DNA of 44,011 bases from Bacteroidales bacterium. GTDB taxonomy: Bacteria > Bacteroidota > Bacteroidia > Bacteroidales > UBA12170. The notes under the pieces were generated by a model. The model saw only the letters and a program-made list of their open reading frames with translations. It ran no database searches and was not told the DNA's origin. Numbering within the stretch: the stretch's first letter is position 1; each line of letters opens with the position of its first letter. Made by a program: the position numbers and the translations under genes. Of this stretch, positions 361 to 12,834 are shown piece after piece. The stretch covers positions 1-44,011 of the forward strand of contig JAGGWH010000016.1 of assembly GCA_021157585.1 (NCBI GenBank). The letters run 5' to 3'.

Positions 361-2967
361 TTATATCGGTATTCTATAAGATAACTTGACTAAGAAAACG
401 TTGTGCGGAAAAACAGAGAACATATCCTCTATATCCTGATTAAAATCAAATGCGTAAGTTGAAGGGAAATCGGTTTTATTTTGAGACCAAACCAAGTACA
501 CAATAGAGCCGGGCTTGTATTCCCAACGTGCAACAAGGTTAGATTGAAATTGTAAAAATTTAAAATCTGGATTATATAAATAACCATCTATATTTCCGTC
601 ATTATTAATATCAACGCCATAATCTGCATCAGGGTTTGTGATTTTGAAACGGTCTGTATATTGGTCGGCTATGGGATTGGTAACATATTTAAAATTACTG
701 TATTCTCCTGTTGAGATAAATGGTTGTCCGTAATATTGAATACTGAAATCGGGAGTAAAGCTGTAATCAATTCTCAGTTGAGTTACAAATGTTTTTTGAT
801 CAATTTCTGCCAAGAAATATTTGTCTTGTCCTTCAATATCCAGAACATCAATATATTGTAGTTGGTTATTGGTAAATCGGAGCGATGGACGCAAAGAAAT
901 ACGTATACGATCCATTGGTCGATAGGTGAAGGTAAAGGAGTAGTTTTGGCGAGACTTAAAGTTTTCAGCTCCATAGAAATAGGAAATCATTGCGGAAGTA
1001 CTGAAATTCTTTTTTCTGTCTGTTGAAATATGCGCATAAGCATTTATGCCTGCCGGGCTTCGGAAGAGAGGGCCTCCTCTAAGTAATGTTTTTTCTAAGG
1101 AGCTTGTGTTAACACTGCTTCCAAATCCAAAAGACCAGAAATTAGTAAACTGACCTCTAAGACCTAAATTTCCGCTCATTGCTAAATATTTTCCACTATA
1201 ATCAAAAGAAGTTGCTTGTGATATTTCAACACTCAATCTACGGAAAATGCCAAAAGGTTTAGGTACATTATACTGAGTCCAAAGTATTTCCGTCATATCA
1301 TCGGCATAACGCAAAAAGCCAATATCGTTTAATTCAAAACCGGGCGATTGCCAACTAAACCACGCTATATAATTCCAACCTCCATTCGTAAATTTTCCAA
1401 ACCAGGCGTTTCCGGCATGTCCGCTTAAGCTGGTTAAGTTTGGGTTGTATTCCATATGTTTGGCATCGGGACGTTGGTAGTAGCGCGAAGAAGCCAATTG
1501 GAGTTCGCTAATTGCAGCTATATCGCCTTGAATGTGGCTACCCATTAGCTTGACAGAGAAATTGTATTTTCTGTTGTTCCAAGCGTGATCAAAGTTAAGG
1601 CCTCCAGTATAGGCTGCTGTGGGTAGAATGTCTAAATAGGCATCTTCAATTTTCCGATTGGTAGCCGTAAACATACCGCCAACTTTAGTATTTCCTTCAT
1701 TAAAATCTTTTTCTATGCGGCTGACAAAATAATTTGTTAAAGGTTCTGCGGTATATTCTTGGATATTTCCGTTAGCATCAGAAATACTGCCATATTCAGT
1801 ATTGGTAACACTTTCTAAAATTCCAATAGATAATCCGTTTTTTGTTCTGCCTGTTATTTTTGCAGCACCTAAAATCGATGTATTTTCAGGGGTGTCGATA
1901 AAAGAGTAATCATCAGGATAATAAGAAGGTCTTTTTCCAATGCGTCGCGAATAAAACAGGTTATCGTTAGCATCGTTGCCACCGCCTAAACGTAATGGAA
2001 AACTGTAAATGTTACGACCTTCGATAAAAAACATACGTTTTTCTTGAAAATAACTTTCAAAGGCAGATAAATTGACTTCGGACGGGTCGGCTTCAACCTG
2101 TCCAAAGTCAGGGTTAATGGTAAGGTCTAAGGTGAGGTTATTGGTAAGTCCTATCTTTGCATCTAATCCAATGCGACTATTGAATCCTGTTCCGTCGGTA
2201 AATGGATCACCTTCTTCAGCCTCAAAGGATTCAAAAGATGCAAGGGTATAGGGGGTAATGTCAAATTGCTTTTTAGGTTTAATATTTTTCAGTCCGTGTA
2301 ATTCTCCAAAGCGGCTAACATATCCGGCTTGTTCATTAGCAATGTGTTGCCAGAGGCTGCGTTCTTCTTTACGGTGAATAAATCGCTTTACTTGTAAACC
2401 CCAAATTTGTTCACGTTCTTCACTAAAACGCAATTGAGTGAAGGGGATTTTTATTTCTGCTACCCAGCCTTCTTTGTCGATACTGGTTTTTAGATACCAA
2501 ATAGGATCCCAAGTGCGGTCGTGTCCAAAACCGTCTTGAGTATATAATTCGTCATTTTTCACTCCCGCAACTGTTGCCGTAAAAGCGTAAGCAGTGTTAT
2601 AATCGTGGTAACTATCAAAAGCAATTTCAACCCAATCGCCTTGAAATCCGTCGCGGCGCGACATGCGGTTTACTATTTTTTCAGGAGTATCATCATATGC
2701 GCGAATTGCGATATAAAGAAAATCATCATCATATAAAATTTTAAATGCCGTTTGTAAGGCTGCTTCTCCACCGTTTAAAGGTCGATACTGAGTAAAAGTA
2801 TTTCCCCAATCAATTTGTTCCCAAGCAGCATCATTGAGCAGGCCGTCAATTTTTGGTGATTCTCCCTGAATTCGACTTGTTGTGTATTCCCTTTTTTCTT
2901 GAGAAAATATATTCCCTGTAATTAAAAGTATATTTAGTAAAAATAGTGGTCTTATAAATTTAATCAT
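361..2967 (-). CDS. DUF5916 family exported protein with N-terminal CBM9-like domain
   Basis: 868 residues with a signal peptide (MIKFIRPLFLLNILLITG, cleavage near residue 22). Residues about 35-215 resemble the CBM9-like carbohydrate-binding fold, with PKIDGLLNDAAWEQ, FLYIAIRAYDD, GDWVEIAFDSY and WVAEIKIPFTQLRF. The rest matches the DUF5916 family, predicted to form an outer-membrane beta-barrel: FGQVEADPSEVNL, EKRMFFIEGRNIY, YSRRIGKRP, alternating polar/aromatic strands, and a last strand ending LSYRIPI. Such proteins are common in Bacteroidota, often near sugar-utilisation or surface genes. The substrate is unknown; a role in surface glycan binding or handling is inferred. It follows the polysaccharide operon on the same strand but is separated by about 130 bases containing a palindrome, and it has its own terminator, so it may be a separate unit. 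Length is normal for the family. Confidence 0.85.
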   Translation of the reverse strand: MIKFIRPLFLLNILLITGNIFSQEKREYTTSRIQGESPKIDGLLNDAAWEQIDWGNTFTQYRPLNGGEAALQTAFKILYDDDFLYIAIRAYDDTPEKIVNRMSRRDGFQGDWVEIAFDSYHDYNTAYAFTATVAGVKNDELYTQDGFGHDRTWDPIWYLKTSIDKEGWVAEIKIPFTQLRFSEEREQIWGLQVKRFIHRKEERSLWQHIANEQAGYVSRFGELHGLKNIKPKKQFDITPYTLASFESFEAEEGDPFTDGTGFNSRIGLDAKIGLTNNLTLDLTINPDFGQVEADPSEVNLSAFESYFQEKRMFFIEGRNIYSFPLRLGGGNDANDNLFYSRRIGKRPSYYPDDYSFIDTPENTSILGAAKITGRTKNGLSIGILESVTNTEYGSISDANGNIQEYTAEPLTNYFVSRIEKDFNEGNTKVGGMFTATNRKIEDAYLDILPTAAYTGGLNFDHAWNNRKYNFSVKLMGSHIQGDIAAISELQLASSRYYQRPDAKHMEYNPNLTSLSGHAGNAWFGKFTNGGWNYIAWFSWQSPGFELNDIGFLRYADDMTEILWTQYNVPKPFGIFRRLSVEISQATSFDYSGKYLAMSGNLGLRGQFTNFWSFGFGSSVNTSSLEKTLLRGGPLFRSPAGINAYAHISTDRKKNFSTSAMISYFYGAENFKSRQNYSFTFTYRPMDRIRISLRPSLRFTNNQLQYIDVLDIEGQDKYFLAEIDQKTFVTQLRIDYSFTPDFSIQYYGQPFISTGEYSNFKYVTNPIADQYTDRFKITNPDADYGVDINNDGNIDGYLYNPDFKFLQFQSNLVARWEYKPGSIVYLVWSQNKTDFPSTYAFDFNQDIEDMFSVFPHNVFLVKLSYRIPI

Positions 2968-3099: not shown

Positions 3100-4605
3100 T
3101 TATTTTTTAAATAATCCGCCAAAAAGATTAAAAGGATCTTTGCCTTGTTTGCGTTCAAGCGTAATAACTTTGTCGTAATGAGTAGCAATAAATAGGAAGG
3201 CCATACCATAATAAATATTAATGGAAGTTGGGAATTGACCCATAACGGCATTTCCGTAATTAGCCAATAAAATTCCCATAATGCCACTAAGAATAGCCAT
3301 CATTCTGGCTTTAAGTTCCGAATCTCGAATCCTAAACATTATAATATATCCACCCTTAATTACTATATAAAAAAGAATAAAAAAGTGTAATAGTAAACCT
3401 ATGGCTCCATTTTCTGCCCATATTAAAACATACCAACTGTCAGTAGCTACATTAGCCAAAAATCCATTTGGAACATATTTTTGTGCTCTAACACCTGCAT
3501 GACCTACACCTCCTCCAATAGGGCGAGTAGACAGATAGTTTTTTAATATTTTTTGATTGTCTAATCTCACTTGAAAACTGGCATCTTGCTCGGGATGAAA
3601 AGCCGTTCTGAGTCGTGCAACCTGATAGTTTGATTGTAAAATGGTAGTATAAGCGAAAAATATATAAACAGCTATACCGGCGATTAAACCCAATGCAATA
3701 AGTCTTTTGTTTTTTGTTAGTATCAAATAAGTGAAAAATCCTAAAGCAGGAATAGCAATAGCACCACGAGTTCCTGAAATAAGCATTCCGTAAAGTCCGA
3801 ATAAAGCTACAATTCCAAAGAAAAGTTTCTTTTTAAGGGATTTGGTTTCGTAGGCAATAATTCCTCCCATAACAAGAGCATGTGCCTGAGAAGCTCCAAA
3901 TTGTCCGGCATCACTCAGGAAAGAAAATACTCGGAGTTTTCCAAAAAGTAAATGTGTTTGATAAGCACCTGCATCCATCCATCTTTGTTCTGCAGGATCT
4001 AATCCGATGATAAGTTGCATAGCTCCTTTTAGTGTAGCTAAAATGGTCATCGATCCCCAGATATAAAAGAATATTTCTAAATCTTTTGGGCTTCGCATAA
4101 GAAGGAGTACCAGAGGAATTCCGAAAAAGAAATAGAGTGCTATTCCACGCATAGTATAAAACCAAGCCTGAAAACTAACGGCTTCGGGGTTAAGGATTTC
4201 AAGAAAAATCCATCCCATCCAAACGGCAGCTAAAAGGCTTACGTCTTTAAGCATTGGTTTCCAATTAACTCCAACATAGAAATGCTTGAAAATGATAGCG
4301 ACTAAAGCCAAGACAAATAAGCCGTCGGCTATCAGACCGTATGGTACTATCGGTCCGGTATAGCGTGGAAGACCATTTATAAAATAAGCGGCCAATTGTA
4401 TACTAAAAAGGGCGATTTTTGGATTGTAAAATACTCGATTAATAAAAATTACAATTAGAGGTAAAAATATAAGTCCTGCAATAAGTGGAATTCCACTGGT
4501 TGACATTAGTTTACCTATAAGAAAGGCGCCTATTACAACTAAAAGAATCGCAATGGGATGTTGCAGCTGAAGAGCTCCTGTATTTTTTTTAAAAGGATTA
4601 CGCAT
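3100..4605 (-). CDS. O-antigen ligase / Wzy polymerase-like membrane protein
   Basis: 501 residues with about a dozen hydrophobic segments. The Wzy_C/O-antigen ligase signature is visible: ISGTRGAIAIP around residues 276-286, then a long extracytoplasmic loop (about 325-390) containing PIGGGVGHAG (362-371), then a WYVLIWAENGAIGLLLHF helix. Enzymes of this family join undecaprenyl-diphosphate-linked oligosaccharides, either polymerising repeat units (Wzy) or transferring chains to an acceptor (WaaL). In this operon, with a flippase and a Wzc-like co-polymerase, the Wzy role is the more likely one. The start codon lies inside the end of the preceding small gene (8-base overlap), pointing to translational coupling. 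It is the last gene of the operon. Confidence 0.8.
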   Translation of the reverse strand: MRNPFKKNTGALQLQHPIAILLVVIGAFLIGKLMSTSGIPLIAGLIFLPLIVIFINRVFYNPKIALFSIQLAAYFINGLPRYTGPIVPYGLIADGLFVLALVAIIFKHFYVGVNWKPMLKDVSLLAAVWMGWIFLEILNPEAVSFQAWFYTMRGIALYFFFGIPLVLLLMRSPKDLEIFFYIWGSMTILATLKGAMQLIIGLDPAEQRWMDAGAYQTHLLFGKLRVFSFLSDAGQFGASQAHALVMGGIIAYETKSLKKKLFFGIVALFGLYGMLISGTRGAIAIPALGFFTYLILTKNKRLIALGLIAGIAVYIFFAYTTILQSNYQVARLRTAFHPEQDASFQVRLDNQKILKNYLSTRPIGGGVGHAGVRAQKYVPNGFLANVATDSWYVLIWAENGAIGLLLHFFILFYIVIKGGYIIMFRIRDSELKARMMAILSGIMGILLANYGNAVMGQFPTSINIYYGMAFLFIATHYDKVITLERKQGKDPFNLFGGLFKK

Positions 4606-4788: not shown

Positions 4789-6486
4789 TTAGAATTTTTG
4801 AAAATTTTGAATCATTCTATTTGTTTCGTTGTATAAAACTATAATATATTTTGCTTTAGGAAGATGATTGATAGAAACGTATTTTGTATTTTCTCCTTTA
4901 GTAAAAGTCTCGTCAGAAAAGAGATTGAATGTTTTTCCTTCCATGTTCACGAGCTTTAAGCTGAGTGTTTGAGTTTTATTTAGCTTAAAACTTAAAGTCA
5001 AATAATCTGAGGCCGGATTTGGTGAAATTTTTAAGGATTGATTATATGTAGCTAAAGTATTTGTAGAAGTGATAATTTGAAGTTCGTAAGCACCAATATC
5101 AAAGTAATTATCAAAAGGGCGAGTGAAATTTTCTATGTCGAAAGTAATACCTTTATCACTTAAATTATAACCTGTATTTACGGCAGGAGAACCGCTTGTA
5201 AGACGATAGTTGTAATTGAGAGTGTCGACAAATAACTGTTCTTTTGAAGATCGTTCGAGAATATTATTAGATAGAAAAATATCATCGGAACTATCTAAAT
5301 AATTGTGAATATATGCATCTTGGGCTTCATAGTTAACAGAGCCCAGGTTTTCGTAAAATTCATAAGCTCCGGGATTGATAATGATATTATTAATAAAACG
5401 ATTGTTTTCACTATGCGAATTCATAAATCTTATACCGTCGCTTTTGGGATTTATTATGGTGTTATTATAGAAATGAAAAGAAGAATCCGGCGGTTGGATA
5501 TAGGTGTATTTTGAAAATATCCCAAACTGTTGTTTTAGGGTTTGATCTTCAAAATCATAATCGCGTCCGGCATTAATAATAAGGTTGTTATAAAAATATT
5601 GTCCGCCTGTTCCTTGATTTAAAATTCCTGTTCCTTTGCCATCGATTATAGTGTTATTATAAACGTTACAACTGCTTCCGGTATTGATAATTATACCTGA
5701 CATTTGATAGGTCGCTTCTGCTTGGGAATCTTTATATATTTGATTGTCGTGGATAGTACAGCCGTATAATGCACTTCCGACTTGTATTCCATCCCAACCG
5801 GTATATTCTACTCGATTATTGTATATTTCTACACCATTAATTATATGGGGAAGAAATGTTTTGTCGCAAGAGCTGATATATTGACCAAGATAAAAAGAAC
5901 TGCCAATATACATTCCTTCGTTTCCAATATCGTGAATATAATTATCGTGAATTTTTATATTGTACATGGTGAAATTAGGGCGGTCAGCATCGTAAACACA
6001 ATTGGGGTCGGTTTTAGCAATAATTCCAACAATTTTTGCATTACTAATCTCTATATTTTCCACTTCAAAATCTGTTGATAGACCTCCAATATTCAACCCT
6101 GAGCCATTGCTTACTTCGCGTATTAGAATTCCATATTTAATATTTTGGTCGCCTGCACCACTTATCACAATATTTTTAGATTCGGCAAACTTTAAGCCAT
6201 ATGTCAAATCAGAATCTATAATAGATTGTCCGCCTTTATTAATGATGACAATGGGTTTTTCGGCAGTACCGATAATATTTTTCAGGTAAAGAGGACCTCT
6301 TGTACCTGCCATTAAGCATAGAGTGTCTCCCGCTTGAAATTCAATATTTGTAATACTGGATGTCGTTGTGTTTATTTCGTAATCGCAATTTATTTGTGCT
6401 TGTGAGCTAAAAGAACTCAGAAGAAATAATGTTAAAACAGACCAGAATACCTTTTTTTGTTTTTTTTTATTGAAAATTTCTCGCAT
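4789..6486 (-). CDS. Exported right-handed parallel beta-helix protein with T9SS type A sorting domain
   Basis: 565 residues. A basic N-terminus and signal peptide (VFWSVLTLFLLSSFSSQAQ) lead to a repeated Asn/Gly/Ile-rich parallel beta-helix of about 400 residues (for example YIHDIGNEGMYIGSS, VEYTGWDGIQVGSALYG, NNTIIDGKGTGIL). The fold is typical of polysaccharide lyases, C5-epimerases and surface glycan proteins. The last 80 residues (SLKISPNPASDYLTL ... LPKAKYIIVLYN) match the T9SS type A C-terminal sorting domain, so the mature protein is expected at the cell surface. Lying between the flippase and polymerase genes, it probably acts on, or is displayed with, the exported polysaccharide; no catalytic residues can be assigned. 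Codons 7-12 contain an A9-C-A7 run that is prone to slippage. Confidence 0.8.
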   Translation of the reverse strand: MREIFNKKKQKKVFWSVLTLFLLSSFSSQAQINCDYEINTTTSSITNIEFQAGDTLCLMAGTRGPLYLKNIIGTAEKPIVIINKGGQSIIDSDLTYGLKFAESKNIVISGAGDQNIKYGILIREVSNGSGLNIGGLSTDFEVENIEISNAKIVGIIAKTDPNCVYDADRPNFTMYNIKIHDNYIHDIGNEGMYIGSSFYLGQYISSCDKTFLPHIINGVEIYNNRVEYTGWDGIQVGSALYGCTIHDNQIYKDSQAEATYQMSGIIINTGSSCNVYNNTIIDGKGTGILNQGTGGQYFYNNLIINAGRDYDFEDQTLKQQFGIFSKYTYIQPPDSSFHFYNNTIINPKSDGIRFMNSHSENNRFINNIIINPGAYEFYENLGSVNYEAQDAYIHNYLDSSDDIFLSNNILERSSKEQLFVDTLNYNYRLTSGSPAVNTGYNLSDKGITFDIENFTRPFDNYFDIGAYELQIITSTNTLATYNQSLKISPNPASDYLTLSFKLNKTQTLSLKLVNMEGKTFNLFSDETFTKGENTKYVSINHLPKAKYIIVLYNETNRMIQNFQKF

Positions 6487-6488
6487 AT

Positions 6489-7838
6489 CTACCCCACAAA
6501 CTCTTTGACTTTATTAGAATAAACCTTCCATCCTTCAACCCAGATTAAGCGTGGATTTAGCTGTAATTCTTTGGTTAAATATCTATAACCAATAATTACA
6601 CCTAAGAAGGTGAAAATAATGGTAACTACGGCGACAGCCATTAAGGATTTAAAGACAAAAACAGCAATTAAATCGCCAATTATATTGGCAGAAACCATAT
6701 AAATTATTTTATAGAAATTCTTTTTTGGTTTATTGATACTATCAAGTCCAACGCCTGTTAGTCTGTCGATAGGTAATAATATTCCATATAGTGCAAAGAC
6801 TTTAAAAATGGCAGAAGTGCTGGCTCCGGTAATAGGATCGACTCCGATATATTGCTGACCTCCGAGCAGCAAAACGAAGAAATCGGAAAAGATAAAGCCG
6901 AAAACAGCGACAGGAATAAACAGTATAGTCATAGATCCGGCATAGCTGTAGAAATAGTATCTAACCATTTTTATATCGTTCTGAATACTTGCTTTAGACA
7001 TTTTTGGAAAGGCCGTTGCCACGAAACTTCGTAAGGGAATCTGAAGCAATTCTGTTAATTTCATCGGTATACTATAGAGTGCAACGGCAGCAGTTCCGAG
7101 TGGGCTTAATGCTATAATAAAAGTGTCGGCACTTCTCAATAAATTAGTTCCTATAAGTGTTAGTGTTGTGTATTTACCAAAATTTAATATTGTGCTATTG
7201 GTTGCTTTATTTGCTTTTGTGAGATAACGTAAACCATCCCATCCGGCTAAAATAGTGATTAGTGATACAAAAGCCGAAATACCTAAATGAAACCAGATAA
7301 CATAAATTAAATCTAATTTTAACCAGAAAAGGTTAATTGTTAAACCCGCAAAGAATAAGCCTGAGTTTAGAGTTTTAACAATAAAAATCTGACCAAAATA
7401 TTGTTTAGCTTGCTGTATGGTAAGCGCATTATTAAAAGGTAAATTAAGAAATGCCAGTATGGGATACCATTTAAAGAAAAGATAAAATCCTGATTGTTTA
7501 ACTTGATCGGGGAAAAAGTATAACACTAACCATAATAAAATGGCAATCAGTAGGCTGGCAACAAGTCCGATAAGCCAGTTAGACCCAATTAATTGTTTCT
7601 TTTCTTCTTCTTTGGCGCCACTTAAAAAACGGATTAAAGCTGTTCTGGTAATTCCAAAGCGAAACATTTCCACAAATGTTGCACCAGTAAGATAAAGTAT
7701 CCATTCGCCAAAAATTTCTTTGTCGAAACTACGAGTGAGGACAACGAAATTCAAAAAACCAAAGCCGGCGGTAAGCATATTTCCGGCTAAGGATTGTATA
7801 TTTTTTTCTTTGGCAATATGAAGAATACGTTTGATCAT
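6489..7838 (-). CDS. Wzx-like oligosaccharide flippase (MATE/MOP superfamily)
   Basis: 449 residues with 12 or more predicted transmembrane helices and no large soluble domain, as in the polysaccharide-transporter branch of the MOP superfamily. The N-terminal segment (SLAGNMLTAGFGFLNFVVLTRSFDKEIFGEWILYL) and the FGKYTTLTLIGTNLLRSADTFIIA segment are characteristic. Expected function: moving undecaprenyl-diphosphate-linked repeat units across the inner membrane, upstream of the Wzy-like polymerase encoded two genes later. Its ATG overlaps the stop of the Wzc-like gene (ATGA), implying coupled translation. The next gene starts 2 bases after its stop. Confidence 0.85.
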   Translation of the reverse strand: MIKRILHIAKEKNIQSLAGNMLTAGFGFLNFVVLTRSFDKEIFGEWILYLTGATFVEMFRFGITRTALIRFLSGAKEEEKKQLIGSNWLIGLVASLLIAILLWLVLYFFPDQVKQSGFYLFFKWYPILAFLNLPFNNALTIQQAKQYFGQIFIVKTLNSGLFFAGLTINLFWLKLDLIYVIWFHLGISAFVSLITILAGWDGLRYLTKANKATNSTILNFGKYTTLTLIGTNLLRSADTFIIALSPLGTAAVALYSIPMKLTELLQIPLRSFVATAFPKMSKASIQNDIKMVRYYFYSYAGSMTILFIPVAVFGFIFSDFFVLLLGGQQYIGVDPITGASTSAIFKVFALYGILLPIDRLTGVGLDSINKPKKNFYKIIYMVSANIIGDLIAVFVFKSLMAVAVVTIIFTFLGVIIGYRYLTKELQLNPRLIWVEGWKVYSNKVKEFVG

Positions 7839-10387
7839 TTTTTCAGCGTATGTCGTTCAAAAAACTGAAGCTTTACAAGCTTTTTAGCGGCTCTACGTAT
7901 TCGGCTGCGTTTACGTGGTAATTCTCCTAAAAGTATTTCGAGTGATTCTGCTTGTGCCCCATTTAATAAAATAAGAGGATTGTATTTCATGAATTGCACT
8001 ATTCCTTTCAAGCTGTTTTCGTCGGAACTTGTCCAAGGACGATTAGCACGTGTTACGAGTATTCCTAAATCGGTATCTTTTATCAAAGCAGGAGGATATG
8101 CATGATGAGTAATAGAAGGAATTTCTATTAATACAAAATCATATTTTGAACAGTCATTTTCTTTTCCTAAAATTTCTTGAACACTTTCTTTAGTAAAGCC
8201 ATCGGCTTCTAGTTTGTATTCGATAGGCTTTTCATCTGAGATAAAAGAAAATTTCGGATTATAATTCGGAAGTTTATAGTTTGCAGATAAGACAGAAAAT
8301 CCGAATTCTTTAAGCTTTCCGCTAAGTGCATCCTGAATAAGCGATTTCCCATCGGTAATTTGAGTACTAAAGATTAAAATATTGATAGGTCTTTTATTTT
8401 GAATACCTTCCGTCTCAAGTATAGATTGCATTTTCTGCACCGCTTGTTCCATCAATCTGTTGGTTATGAAATTGTAATTAATTCCATTTGTTTTTTTAGA
8501 CATTAAGGGGTAAGCAGAAAGTAAATCTAAGCCGCTAAGTTTTTCGGCACGTATGGGTGTTTTAATTGTATTGTCGAAATATTCGAGAACAAGAATAACA
8601 AAAAGCACCAGCATAAGACCAACAATTCCTGCTGCAGCAATAAATAATTTACGCTTAGAAGATTCGGCAGATAAAGGAAAATAGGGAGGATCTACTGTTT
8701 TTATATTTGATTGAAGTTCAAGATTTTGTTGTTTTAGTTTGGCTAAATTAAGACTATTTAATACAGAAAGATATTGCTGTTCGTAAACGTTTATTTCGCG
8801 TTCTATACGCGATAATTTTGCACCAAGAGGAGCGAACTGTTCGTAGGTTTTTTGAAATTCTGTTTTTCTTTCTTGTAAAGCAGTTAGTTTAGCTTTAGTC
8901 TCTTCGTAAGTAAGGGTATTGCTTAGCCATTTAGAGAGTATTTCATCAGAGTTTACTCCTTGAGCAGAAAATTGCAAACTAAATACCTGATCGATATTTT
9001 TATTAATCTTATTGCGTAATTCAAGCTGCTTGTCTTTTAAGTCGGCAATGGCTTGTATGGTTTTTGGATCGGAAGAATTGTTTAATTCATTAATAGTAAT
9101 TTTATATGTTATATCTGAAAGTTGATTACGATACTCCAGCATATCGGTATTTAATTTCGCTATTCCTTTTTGGTTTGCGAGCTGTTTATTTAAGTTTTTT
9201 AAAACCGAATCGGCAGCAGTAAAAATCATCATTTCGTCGTAATATCTGCTTTCCAAAATTTGTTTTTGTTCTGAAATATGACGTGTTTGCTCGTAATAAT
9301 TAATAATGTTATTTTCTTGGTTAAATTTTAAAAGCCTGTTTTCTGCTGCCTGAAGGTTCATGCTCGATTCAGCCACTCTTTCTTCAAAATAGGCAACTAC
9401 ATTATCACTTTGGTTTTCTTTAAGCTTTTTATAATTTTTTTTAAAAGCATCAATAGTAAATTGTATACATTGCTTACAAATTCCGGGATCTGTAGTTTTA
9501 AAAGTTAGCTCAATCAAATCGCTACCCTGAACACGTTTTGCCGATACCCCACCAACAGCACGCATGCTGTAATATTTATGACCATAGTTTAAAAGTCCGT
9601 AAATATAATTGGTATCATCAGCTGCATAATATTTTTTAAAACGCTCTAATGTTTGGGCAAAACTAGCACTGTCAATTTCTGCTTTTAAATAATAAGTCGT
9701 ATCGGGAATGTAAAGCGGAATGGTGTCGTATTTTCCGGCTTTTGTGCTATGAACAATTAAATCTTCTTGATCGAAAATTAGTTCTGTGCCGGGTTCCAAT
9801 TTCGTTGATGTAAGCGTATTTTTATTCATTAATTCGCTGGCAGAAATTCCCAGCTTTGATGAAATGGAAAATAAAGATTCTTTGTCTTTAACTGTATATA
9901 CTTTATTTCTAACGAGATATTGTTTGTTTTTTAGGTTGGCAGTATCATTTATTATTAGAGGTATTTTATTATTTAAATTTGATTTATTTGCATTTTCAGG
10001 CAAAATAACCATATCTTTAATATACTGTGGAACAAGCTCTTGTAGTTCGTTAAACGATTTACGAGAAATGTATTGAGGGTCCCAGCTTTTAAGGCTTAAA
10101 CCTTGAATAAAAAGGCTTAAAGCAACTTCTTTATGTGTTTCACGAGCTTTGAAAATATTTATAATATTATCAAATTCCATCTTCGATCCAAAATAATCTA
10201 AACGAGAATTTGCTTGCGCTTCAAGTGTTAATCCGGAGCCTAAGCCGGTATAAATGGTGGAGGAGCTAACATAGTATTTTTCTTCATTACGTGTGCCGTA
10301 ATATACTAATGCGACCAAAATAACAGGCACAAGAATCAGTATTAAAAGATTTTTGCGGATAAGCTTAATAAATTGAATTATATCCAT
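7835..10387 (-). CDS. Wzc-like polysaccharide co-polymerase with periplasmic LysM insert and degenerate kinase domain
   Basis: 850 residues. Transmembrane helices at about 13-30 and 581-602 flank a long periplasmic region with a coiled-coil middle (about 320-560) and the DPPYFPLSAESSKRK segment typical of Wzz proteins before the second helix. Residues about 163-206 (YTVKDKESLFSISSKLG, ISASELMNKN, LEPGTELIF) read as a LysM domain, unusual in this family. The cytoplasmic part (about 640-850) resembles BY-kinase/ParA-type ATPases but is altered: Walker A is reduced to TQITDGKS (675-682), the Walker B-like strand reads DFVLIEIPS (750-758), and the C-terminus is basic (RKRSRIRRAAKK) with no tyrosine cluster. 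Expected role: chain-length control and coupling of polymerisation to export. Its first codon shares a base with the stop of the TolC-like gene (TAATG). Confidence 0.8.
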   Translation of the reverse strand: MDIIQFIKLIRKNLLILILVPVILVALVYYGTRNEEKYYVSSSTIYTGLGSGLTLEAQANSRLDYFGSKMEFDNIINIFKARETHKEVALSLFIQGLSLKSWDPQYISRKSFNELQELVPQYIKDMVILPENANKSNLNNKIPLIINDTANLKNKQYLVRNKVYTVKDKESLFSISSKLGISASELMNKNTLTSTKLEPGTELIFDQEDLIVHSTKAGKYDTIPLYIPDTTYYLKAEIDSASFAQTLERFKKYYAADDTNYIYGLLNYGHKYYSMRAVGGVSAKRVQGSDLIELTFKTTDPGICKQCIQFTIDAFKKNYKKLKENQSDNVVAYFEERVAESSMNLQAAENRLLKFNQENNIINYYEQTRHISEQKQILESRYYDEMMIFTAADSVLKNLNKQLANQKGIAKLNTDMLEYRNQLSDITYKITINELNNSSDPKTIQAIADLKDKQLELRNKINKNIDQVFSLQFSAQGVNSDEILSKWLSNTLTYEETKAKLTALQERKTEFQKTYEQFAPLGAKLSRIEREINVYEQQYLSVLNSLNLAKLKQQNLELQSNIKTVDPPYFPLSAESSKRKLFIAAAGIVGLMLVLFVILVLEYFDNTIKTPIRAEKLSGLDLLSAYPLMSKKTNGINYNFITNRLMEQAVQKMQSILETEGIQNKRPINILIFSTQITDGKSLIQDALSGKLKEFGFSVLSANYKLPNYNPKFSFISDEKPIEYKLEADGFTKESVQEILGKENDCSKYDFVLIEIPSITHHAYPPALIKDTDLGILVTRANRPWTSSDENSLKGIVQFMKYNPLILLNGAQAESLEILLGELPRKRSRIRRAAKKLVKLQFFERHTLKK

Positions 10388-11184
10388 TATTCCCAGTTAT
10401 TAAGTTCGTTAAATTTTATCCCAGTTATTTCCTGAAGCATTACATAAGCATTTATAAACCCTGTTTGGCTATCCACGAAACGGTATCTAGCTCTGGCTAA
10501 ATTGTCGCGTACTCTTGATAAATCGGCTAGCGATATTTTTCCGTTTTGAAACTCCCTGTCGGCCATTTCTGCTGTAAGCTCAGAAAACTCAATATTATCT
10601 ATATCAAGCTTTAGCATATTTTGTTGAATTATAAGCTCGTTGTACAGATTAATAACATTTGCTCTAATGGTTTGTCTGTCTTCAAGCATTTTTTCAATAT
10701 TCCGCTCAATACGCATTTTATTTAATTTAATTTGATTGCCACGATCCCAAAGACTTTGTATCGGTAATCGTAAACCCAAACCAATAGAGTAGCGTCCTTG
10801 ATCAGTTGTTCCTAAAGTTCCGACTTCATTGCCATATTCGTCTTGAATAAATACCAAACTTGTCCATGTTCCTTCTTTTGCTTCACCCGTAAAATATATT
10901 CCTTTAGCCCAGTCGCGTTTAGCAGATTTTAATTCGTATTCGGTAATTTTTATTTCTTTATCCCAATATTTTAAGCGGTGAGAATTTATTAGTGCAGAAT
11001 CAATTAAAACATCTAATGGAGGTATTTTTTTGGTTATATCATCCGTTAATGGGTTGAAAATGTTTTCGTTAGATATTGAAATTTCTTGAGCTGTTGAGTT
11101 TGATGGATACAATGCTGTTATAAGTAAGATAACAGATAATTGTTTTAGAATAATGTAGTATAGTTTCTTCCTTAGCCTATGCAT
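10387..11184 (-). CDS. Short TolC-like outer-membrane protein of the polysaccharide operon
   Basis: 265 residues from the ATG at 11184. The frame can be extended to a TTG at 11205, but the ATG gives a compact signal peptide (MHRLRKKLYYIILKQLSVILLITAL ... STAQ) and is preferred. The body looks like one outer-membrane efflux repeat of the TolC type: a long helix (LIDSALINSHRLKYWDKEI), a short strand region (GRYSIGLGLRLPI), then long helices (AEMADREFQNGKISLADLSRVRDNLARAR). Full TolC proteins are usually 400-500 residues with two such repeats, so this is about half size. It sits just before the Wzc-like gene, where a Wza-type export channel would be expected; it may form the outer-membrane exit as a multimer or with a partner. 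No Wza-type protein is encoded in the window. Confidence 0.7.
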   Translation of the reverse strand: MHRLRKKLYYIILKQLSVILLITALYPSNSTAQEISISNENIFNPLTDDITKKIPPLDVLIDSALINSHRLKYWDKEIKITEYELKSAKRDWAKGIYFTGEAKEGTWTSLVFIQDEYGNEVGTLGTTDQGRYSIGLGLRLPIQSLWDRGNQIKLNKMRIERNIEKMLEDRQTIRANVINLYNELIIQQNMLKLDIDNIEFSELTAEMADREFQNGKISLADLSRVRDNLARARYRFVDSQTGFINAYVMLQEITGIKFNELNNWE

Positions 11185-11226
11185 AAAACGTGATAGTTTG
11201 TACAAATTTAAAAAAAATCAATCAGT

Positions 11227-12414
11227 TTAAACACTTCCCCTTTGAATGAATATTTTTAAGGTGCGAAATATAAGCTTGATATCGCCCCAAAAGGAGTTGT
11301 TTTCTGCATAAGTATTATCATATTCAAAGCGTTCTTCTTCTGACATATCACCATCTTTTCCGCGTAATTCAACTTGCCAAAGCCCTGTTAAACCGGCAGC
11401 TGCTTTAAATCTACGTGCCCATCTGGATTTTGTTATTGCAATTGCTTCTCCTACGGGTAAAGGACGATTTCCAACTATTGACATATCTCCGTTTAAAATA
11501 TTAAAAAGTTGTGGTAATTCGTCTATACTTGTGTTTCGAATAAACCGACCAACTTTTGTTATTCTTGGATCGTTTTCGACTTTTAGAAATGCAGCTTTGG
11601 CATTTTTCTTTTTGATATAGAAATACTCGCAAATTTCGCTGCCGTCGTCTTGTTTGAGTGTGGGTGAACAAAAAACACCTTCGGGTAAACTCTTGCATCG
11701 TGGACATTCATCCTCAAGTAATTCGCCTTGATATTGATTTAAATGTTCTACTTCTTTTAAGCGCTTATCTGCATCGGGATACATAGAACGGAACTTATAG
11801 AAATTAAATTCGTGGAAATTAGCTCCTACTCTTTTAGATGAATAAAAAACTTTTCCTTTTGATTCTATTCGAATGGCAATGGCAGTGAGCAAGAAAACCG
11901 GACTTAAAACTAAGATTGCTCCTCCTGCCATAATAATATCAAAAGCACGTTTTAAAAATGGAGTTTTATATGGATGATTTTTGAAATCTTCAAAAGCTTT
12001 TTTTCTGTTTTTATCAGTATATTTTGCTTTATATTTTCTCAGAAATTTTATTCTGATTTTAAGGCGATCTATATCTAAAGGTAGTGCATAATAATCGTCG
12101 ACTTTATTTTTGTATGCAAGGATTCGGGAAGCAAATTCAAAACGTTTTGCTACTACTATAAAAGGGATTTTATTCAATAAGCTGTGGAAACGCATGTGGT
12201 TGTACAAGGAAAATGCATTCATCCCTTTAATTCCTAAAGAGCATAAAATGGCATCTATTTTGTCGTATTCGCTAATGTTATTATTTATCCATTGTATGGC
12301 TGCTAACCCATTGTCTTTACTAATAAATTCAACATTTTCTGTATTTGAAAGCTGTTCAATAATCTTGGGATCTTTCCCTATATATAATATTCTTCCTGTA
12401 TACGATTCTTTCAT
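11227..12414 (-). CDS. Initiating sugar transferase (monotopic phosphoglycosyl transferase) fused to a pseudo-receiver domain
   Basis: 395 residues. The C-terminal part (about 150-395) is a bacterial sugar transferase. It has a membrane segment (FDIIMAGGAILVLSPVFLLTAIAIRI), then KRVGANFHEFNFYKFRSM, TSIDELPQLFNILNGDMSIVGNRP with the Asp298-Glu299 dyad known to be catalytic in PglC, and LTGLWQVELRGK. It should transfer a sugar phosphate onto undecaprenyl phosphate, starting repeat-unit synthesis. Residues 1-125 align with the receiver of the neighbouring regulator, but the phospho-acceptor position is Ser59, the Ser/Thr position Ala89 and the Lys position Leu111, so it should not be phosphorylatable. 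An insert with Cys237, Cys240, Cys249 and Cys262 lies before NDPRITKVGRF and may bind a metal. It follows the receiver gene by 21 bases. Confidence 0.85.
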   Translation of the reverse strand: MKESYTGRILYIGKDPKIIEQLSNTENVEFISKDNGLAAIQWINNNISEYDKIDAILCSLGIKGMNAFSLYNHMRFHSLLNKIPFIVVAKRFEFASRILAYKNKVDDYYALPLDIDRLKIRIKFLRKYKAKYTDKNRKKAFEDFKNHPYKTPFLKRAFDIIMAGGAILVLSPVFLLTAIAIRIESKGKVFYSSKRVGANFHEFNFYKFRSMYPDADKRLKEVEHLNQYQGELLEDECPRCKSLPEGVFCSPTLKQDDGSEICEYFYIKKKNAKAAFLKVENDPRITKVGRFIRNTSIDELPQLFNILNGDMSIVGNRPLPVGEAIAITKSRWARRFKAAAGLTGLWQVELRGKDGDMSEEERFEYDNTYAENNSFWGDIKLIFRTLKIFIQRGSV

Positions 12415-12435
12415 AATCGATGGCTTTTACGATTT

Positions 12436-12834
12436 TTAATATCCTTTGCGCTGAGAGTATAAATCTAACGATATCAATCTCCTTTTAACCCTTGCAAGTA
12501 ATTCTTTAGGGTTGAAAGGTTTGATAATGTAGTCGTCGGCTCCGGTTTCGAAGCATTTTATTCTGTCGTCGCTACTTTCTTTACCCGAAAGCATAAGTAA
12601 AGGAATATCATCGAAAAAACCACTGGCACGAACTTGTTTGATAAACTCAAATCCGTTCATTATGGGCATTTCAATATCGCAAATTATTAAATCGGGAATG
12701 TCTCCGGTTTGCATTGACACTAAGGCCAGTTCCCCATTAGGGAAAGTTTCAATTTCAAAATCTTTCTTGAAAGTGTTTTCAATAATAAAGCGGATGCTTT
12801 GTTCATCATCGATGGCAAAAATCTTTTTTTTCAT
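12436..12834 (-). CDS. Single-domain response regulator (receiver only)
   Basis: 132 residues consisting of a canonical receiver domain: acidic pair Asp9-Asp10, phospho-acceptor Asp53 in IICDIEMPIMNGFEF, Ser83 in LMLSGKE, and Lys105 in ADDYIIKPF. There is no DNA-binding or enzymatic output domain, so it probably acts through protein contact. It is the first gene of the polysaccharide operon, directly before a sugar transferase whose N-terminus is a degenerate copy of the same domain. A regulatory contact between the two (receiver heterodimer) is a reasonable inference. No histidine kinase gene is in the window. Confidence 0.9.
   Translation of the reverse strand: MKKKIFAIDDEQSIRFIIENTFKKDFEIETFPNGELALVSMQTGDIPDLIICDIEMPIMNGFEFIKQVRASGFFDDIPLLMLSGKESSDDRIKCFETGADDYIIKPFNPKELLARVKRRLISLDLYSQRKGY

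Follow-up and report, generated by a model that had tools for sequence, protein, structure and literature searches.

Pairing of a single-domain response regulator with a pseudo-receiver-phosphoglycosyl transferase fusion in Bacteroidota: a candidate two-protein switch for glycan initiation

How bacteria share out undecaprenyl phosphate among glycan pathways that compete for it has yet to be settled. Response-regulator control of the first glycan enzyme has one studied case in the account given by PMC12802240 (mBio 2025), that of Myxococcus. A stretch of 44,011 nucleotides from a member of the Bacteroidales (assembly GCA_021157585.1, contig JAGGWH010000016.1), hereafter the window, raises the question whether such control could be exerted by a receiver on a receiver-like domain carried by the enzyme itself. 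Two neighbouring genes of this window encode a single-domain response regulator (SDRR, P0002) and a phosphoglycosyl transferase (PGT, P0001) with an additional N-terminal domain (Table 1). A sequence-only reading of this DNA had proposed that the phosphorylated receiver dimerises with a dead receiver fused to the transferase, and thus switches glycan initiation on or off.

Table 1. Features of the window, with their positions, strand and the evidence on which each assignment is based.
Feature	Positions	Strand	Evidence
SDRR (P0002, 132 aa)	12436-12834	-	Pfam Response_reg
Pseudo-receiver/PGT fusion (P0001, 395 aa)	11227-12414	-	Pfam Bac_transf
N-terminal pseudo-receiver domain of P0001 (residues ~1-140)	11995-12414	-	alignments, family profiles
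Predicted catalytic domain of P0001, small monotopic PGT type	11230-11952	-	D298-E299 near-invariant in family
Insert with four Cys in the catalytic domain of P0001	11581-11730	-	Cys counts in relatives
TolC-like outer-membrane protein (272 aa), next downstream of PGT	10387-11205	-	Pfam OEP, E 5.2e-27
Wzc-type chain-length protein (850 aa) with LysM domain	7835-10387	-	Pfam LysM, E 8.9e-9
Wzx-type flippase	6489-7838	-	Pfam Polysacc_synt, E 9.3e-14
Beta-helix protein with Por secretion-system tail, beside export genes	4789-6486		Pfam
Wzy/O-antigen-ligase-type protein	3100-4605	-	Pfam Wzy_C, E 8.2e-11
DUF5916/CBM9 protein, beside export genes	361-2967		Pfam

Relatives of the PGT were searched with P0001 as query (E<=1e-40) and were found in 68/393 genomes of the order, 54/395 of the class and 37/395 of the phylum, these three draws of genomes overlapping; their occurrence thus extends beyond the window's order to further orders and classes of its phylum. 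The listed matches, strong matches from the same genus and the window itself make up a set of 151 PGT open reading frames (ORFs), in which PGTs with the N-terminal domain are over-represented since the query carries this domain. The PGTs with at least 100 aa ahead of the catalytic domain, 123 in number, are called fused. The borderline case L248, with 96 aa when counted from the called start, is added to the residue, tree and downstream-gene counts (n=124), which leaves 27 PGTs (28 minus L248) without N-terminal domain, i.e., a clade of 12 and 15 others.

Taken as a single sequence, the N-terminal domain of P0001 resembles receivers weakly. Against Response_reg, the full-length protein reaches E 0.018 and the fragment of residues 1-138 reaches 0.0021, with 15.6-18.6 bits versus a cut-off of 30.2, and BLASTP of P0002 against P0001 aligns residues 54-123 (70 residues) with 26% identity (E 1e-8 for one comparison). 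Although these matches are weak, family profiles rule out a chance resemblance. The comparison by hhalign of 45 N-terminal domains (A4) with 39 SDRRs (A5) gives a probability of 99.8% (E 4.8e-30). This confirms the alignment of the transferase N-terminus with the upstream receiver made in the sequence-only reading, whose two ORFs lie where it had placed them. The A4 profile also matches receivers from the PDB (best E 3.9e-18, PleD 9.1e-18, PhoB 1e-13), and 36 of its 45 domains match Response_reg at E<=0.01. These 45 domains come from a sample of 62, from which ten divergent ones were put in a separate set (A6) and seven in neither, so that the A4 results describe the less divergent part of the whole; A5 contains 39 of 40 sampled SDRRs, L232, which has Glu at position 53, being left out. 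The divergent domains of A6 match the PDB receiver 3luf (E 7e-5) and the main set of N-terminal domains (97.9%, E 6e-13). Furthermore, an SDRR profile detects the N-terminal domain in 79/123 fused PGTs at E<=0.01.

The two partners show opposite fates of the residues involved in phosphorylation. P0002 matches Response_reg over residues 5-117 (E 9.1e-27), has no output domain and keeps an intact phosphorylation site (D9/D10, D53, S83, K105). The three substitutions that the sequence-only reading had listed for P0001, D53 to S59, S83 to A89 and K105 to L111, are all correct, and the metal-binding acidic pair, which it had overlooked, is also gone (D9/D10 to G13/K14). Four features were scored among relatives: an acid at position 9 or 10, Asp at 53, Ser/Thr at 83 and Lys at 105. 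In SDRRs, Asp 53 is found in 116/120, and Ser/Thr at 83 and Lys 105 in 120/120 each. In the 124 fused domains, position 53 is occupied by Glu (69), Asp (16) or Ser (11) among others, Lys 105 is kept in 16 and position 9 is Gly in 97. All four features are present in 115/120 SDRRs and in 0/124 fused domains, only 4 of which have three of them, so that in the family, as in the window, the SDRR looks phosphorylatable and the fused domain does not. Judged from profiles and alignments, the N-terminal domain of P0001 is a pseudo-receiver of the receiver family that has lost the residues required for phosphotransfer.

The pairing is conserved in many Bacteroidota. A same-strand SDRR gene lies directly upstream of 120/123 fused PGT genes, whereas a receiver was found within 1.5 kb in 0/20 other PGT loci. 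Of these 20 loci, 17 come from relatives and 3 from the same genome as the window; L021, L030, L031 and L035 are shortened because the contig stops, and L001 lies next to L002. This rejects a local accident as the origin of the pair, and the conservation that the sequence-only reading had made a check of its proposal is thus found. In the window, the two genes are separated by 21 nt, both being on the minus strand; over the 120 pairs, the median gap is 6 nt, with 35/120 pairs overlapping and 117/120 within 100 nt. Among the three fused PGTs without an adjacent SDRR, L081, whose contig stops after 272 nt, and L083 are contig-end cases, and L101 is a real absence. L248, the 124th row, has no adjacent SDRR either. 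Directly upstream of its pseudo-receiver-PGT, a FIST-domain protein is encoded between two histidine-kinase genes (L248:6331-10422). Tandem copies of the pair occur in L104 and L132, where 4/4 PGTs have their own SDRR. As these two genomes belong to the same genus and the tree joins the copies in pairs, they probably result from one duplication.

The genes that follow the pair point to its cellular function. They encode, in order, the TolC-like protein, the Wzc-type protein, the Wzx-type flippase, the beta-helix protein with Por tail and the Wzy_C protein. A TolC-like relative is found directly downstream in 80/124 fused loci and a Wzc relative is located downstream in 91/124, and the SDRR/PGT unit is thus part of a polysaccharide export operon. 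The Wzc-type protein of the window matches NCBIfam pepcterm_ChnLen (E 1.8e-13) and reaches 22.1 bits with Pfam GNVR, below the cut-off of 27.7; no kinase domain was found among its Pfam matches at E<=1. Its LysM domain covers residues 164-204.

P0001 itself matches Bac_transf (PF02397) with E 7.1e-59, its residues 155-390 covering positions 1-178 of the 179 of the profile. D298 and E299 are taken to be the catalytic Asp-Glu dyad, and S171 and P172 to be the Ser-Pro of the re-entrant helix. Among the 124 fused relatives, D298 is conserved in 122, E299 in 121, P172 in 124 and S171 in 98. The family match and these motifs together predict that P0001 is a small monotopic PGT.

The catalytic domain also carries an insert with four cysteines (C237, C240, C249 and C262), which are nearly all-or-none across relatives: four are present in 82 of the 124 fused PGTs, five in 5, one in 2 and none in 35. 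The four cysteines are also found in 16/27 related PGTs that lack the pseudo-receiver. This insert could be a metal site.

The two partners also differ at other receiver positions, and the fused domains keep some residues of a possible docking surface. The Y-T coupling residues are kept in 118/120 SDRRs versus 28/124 fused domains. All 120 of the 120 SDRRs have Phe at position K+2, and 88/124 fused domains have Ala, Ile, Leu or Val there; according to PMC12632262, Phe at K+2 of CheY biases towards inactive conformations, and A, I, L or V towards active ones. P0001 keeps R97, D106, D107 and R121, which are equivalent to R91, D100, D101 and R115 of P0002. Asp or Glu at 101 is combined with Arg or Lys at 115 in 85/120 SDRRs, and this combination is kept in 104/124 pseudo-receivers. 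In PhoB, R115D is inactive and is partly rescued by D101R (PMC4511772). However, since the matching pair of RegX3 stabilises beta5-alpha5 within the domain (PMC4511772), the conservation of 101 and 115 is suggestive, not decisive. Other positions of the PhoB-type interface are less kept in pseudo-receivers (base at 91 in 57/124, acid at 111 in 43/124).

Covariation between SDRRs and pseudo-receivers did not exceed that of shuffled pairs (the highest z is 5.2, and the highest z per shuffle averages 5.4 over 20 shuffles, with 54 effective sequences). AlphaFold2 applied to the whole PGT, with three sequences as input, gives a mean pLDDT of 36. A tethered read-through model of SDRR and pseudo-receiver reaches a mean pLDDT of 62 and a pTM of 0.47, the five models having mean pLDDT of 62, 52, 38, 37 and 34. 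The beta-alpha repeat appears in both halves of this model. The co-folding that the sequence-only reading had called for thus yields two receiver-like folds, but no interface is readable at these values. PleD chains fill the ten best Foldseek rows for the tethered model (E 3.0e-14 to 1.3e-12); as the rmsd to PleD is ~14 A over both domains, the folds of the domains agree but their arrangement does not. The rows listed by VIA-align 2 mostly span residues 1-131 only.

No constant kinase accompanies the pair. In the window, the gene upstream of the pair is presumably uvrB-like and not a kinase gene. The 1.5 kb upstream of the SDRR gene include a HATPase ORF in 13 of the 112 fused loci readable that far, and in 7 of these 13 it is on the same strand. 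The loci L118, L119, L128, L129, L131 and L135 have in common, close to the pair, a receiver-histidine kinase of ~375 aa (46-77% identical between loci), whose domains were checked in L118. The best match to the L118 kinase in the genome of the window, G000:C76:412-1494, is 36% identical, and no cognate kinase is therefore named for the pair of the window.

The PGTs without pseudo-receiver serve as a second comparison. Twelve of them make up a single clade (SH-aLRT 100), which the best tree places inside the fused PGTs. The 9-17 kb read per locus showed no single-domain receiver (only 235 nt upstream for L126), nor was any TolC-like or Wzc relative found downstream. This clade spans 11 genomes, 10 of which also hold a fused copy, and these fused copies have an SDRR in 8 cases and are contig-end cases in the 2 others.

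The 15 other PGTs are more varied. In L257 and L259-L261, an SDRR adjoins a PGT without pseudo-receiver, so that the pseudo-receiver cannot be the sole possible docking site; in L259-L261, a histidine kinase is encoded directly upstream of the SDRR. Five loci (L235, L236, L238, L252, L256) have a same-strand receiver ~2-3 kb upstream of the PGT, that of L238 having Asn at the phosphorylation position. A simple joint loss of pseudo-receiver and SDRR was dropped on account of these distant receivers, which leaves the clade of 12 as the one fairly clean control. In L258 and L262, a receiver is encoded on the opposite strand at another place of the stretch, and none was found in the stretch of L254. 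L110 resembles a broken fused gene, and the PGT of L112 sits where its contig stops. In L139 (7203-8711), receiver-type proteins of 152 and 124 aa are encoded separately and are followed by a PGT without N-terminal domain. A gene for a probable lipoprotein of ~675-740 aa, which we take to be LruC-like, is found upstream of the PGT in L235, L238, L252, L256 and L260, and lies between PGT and receiver in 4 of these 5 loci. On the tree, 8 changes are needed for the pseudo-receiver domain and 5 for the SDRR; an independent-pairs test of the domain versus the SDRR has 4 usable pairs and is not significant (median p 0.5).

An SDRR without output domain must act through another protein. Since the neighbour of this one is a PGT with a dead homologous domain whose interface is partly kept, docking is the simplest reading. 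The two genes would form one regulatory unit acting on the step that starts a Wzx/Wzy-type surface polysaccharide. In this unit, the SDRR would be the switch and would receive its phosphate from a histidine kinase whose gene lies elsewhere, and the pseudo-receiver would be a non-phosphorylatable adaptor that retains part of the docking surface of receivers. In a phosphate-dependent way, the SDRR would bind directly to the pseudo-receiver, most likely via the alpha4-beta5-alpha5 face as in PleD. This docking would alter the assembly or the accessibility of the PGT and most likely switch glycan initiation on. Activation is likelier than inhibition because EpsW~P stimulates EpsZ (PMC12802240). 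A probability of about 0.6 is given to this two-protein PleD-like switch, in which the phosphorylated SDRR docks and turns on glycan initiation. More generally, the pairing in many Bacteroidota suggests that a phosphorylation signal controls the production of a sugar polymer by direct contact with the enzyme. The direct control proposed by the sequence-only reading thus gains from the pairing, from the fates of the residues and from the EpsW-EpsZ precedent, but draws nothing from covariation, and the four loci with an SDRR beside a PGT devoid of pseudo-receiver count against it.

The same sequence data would fit negative control, in which a self-dimerised pseudo-receiver keeps the PGT active by default and the SDRR, in one of its two phosphorylation states, competes for the face used in this dimer and shuts initiation down. 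The data do not fix the sign, and many atypical receivers dimerise without phosphorylation (PMC12632262). Against this, the sole measured precedent, EpsW-EpsZ, is an activation (PMC12802240), and inhibition appears unlikely. Another possibility would place the target of the SDRR in the catalytic domain or in another member of the export complex, the pseudo-receiver being a scaffold that replaces the cytoplasmic domain of large PGTs. L257 and L259-L261 would agree with it, as would the published EpsZ-EpsW model, where EpsW contacts the DUF as well as the catalytic domain (PMC12802240). However, the SDRR accompanies nearly all PGTs that have the domain (120/123) and none was found around the clade of 12, which makes a pure scaffold improbable.

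The SDRR could also be merely co-transcribed, as a relay or phosphate sink for another pathway, while the pseudo-receiver senses something else. The lack of a constant kinase beside the pair would fit such a role, but the strict adjacency over the sampled phylum and the tandem copies that each hold both genes speak against it, and it is considered very improbable. The docking switch is thus the preferred reading. A more specific form of it is a split PleD across Bacteroidota, with a pseudo-receiver locked in an active-like state, a phosphorylated SDRR that licenses the PGT, lineage-specific kinases and no transcriptional step. This version is tentative and somewhat more likely to be wrong than right. 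If true, a kinase signal would commit undecaprenyl phosphate to one exopolysaccharide without a transcriptional step. A conserved two-gene switch, if true, would make response-regulator control of the first glycan enzyme general and testable with soluble domains.

Part of this is already known, since control of an initiating PGT by an SDRR is reported in Myxococcus, as are receiver domains in small monoPGTs (PMC12802240). In the literature listed for receivers with PGTs, sugar transferases or Bacteroidetes, subscription papers being largely outside, no paper on the Bacteroidota pair was found, nor any mention of the dead state of the PGT-fused receiver or of a conserved partner gene. The words glycosyl, sugar transferase and polysaccharide are absent from the main text of PMC12632262.

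A close parallel is EpsW-EpsZ of Myxococcus xanthus. EpsW~P stimulates EPS biosynthesis post-translationally, proximity labelling places it near EpsZ, and EpsW raises the activity of EpsZ in a heterologous host (PMC12802240). There, a single-domain response regulator acts on the initiating monotopic PGT of a Wzx/Wzy-type pathway. The pair described here would be similar, its partnership being seen as gene adjacency; it differs from EpsW-EpsZ in that the genes for SDRR and PGT lie immediately side by side. EpsW has as its kinase DifE, which belongs to a chemosensory system, and EpsZ is one of the large monoPGTs, combining a transmembrane bundle with a cytoplasmic DUF that lacks the beta-hairpin (PMC12802240). 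In contrast, P0001 would be of the small type, and the ~140 residues before its catalytic domain form a receiver-family domain. In this respect, it resembles the fusions of receiver-type domains to small monoPGTs catalogued by O'Toole et al. 2021 (PNAS, doi 10.1073/pnas.2018289118), as cited in PMC12802240.

The N-terminal domains share with pseudo-receivers in general the absence of catalytic residues and the predominance of Glu at the phosphorylation position (69/124 here), Glu being its commonest occupant in the survey of Bourret et al. 2025 (PMC12632262), whose abstract terms pseudo-receiver regulation a mystery. By its architecture, the pair is close to PleD of Caulobacter, which also combines a phosphorylatable receiver, a pseudo-receiver and a catalytic output, and in which phosphorylation of the receiver changes its contacts with the pseudo-receiver and leads to dimerisation and cyclase activity (PMC12632262). 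However, PleD is one chain with a diguanylate cyclase output, whereas two chains and a PGT output are found here; both receiver domains in one chain were not seen among the 123 fused PGT ORFs, the longest of which has 461 aa. The pair also offers a natural receiver and pseudo-receiver on separate chains, with which pseudo-receiver regulation could be measured directly.
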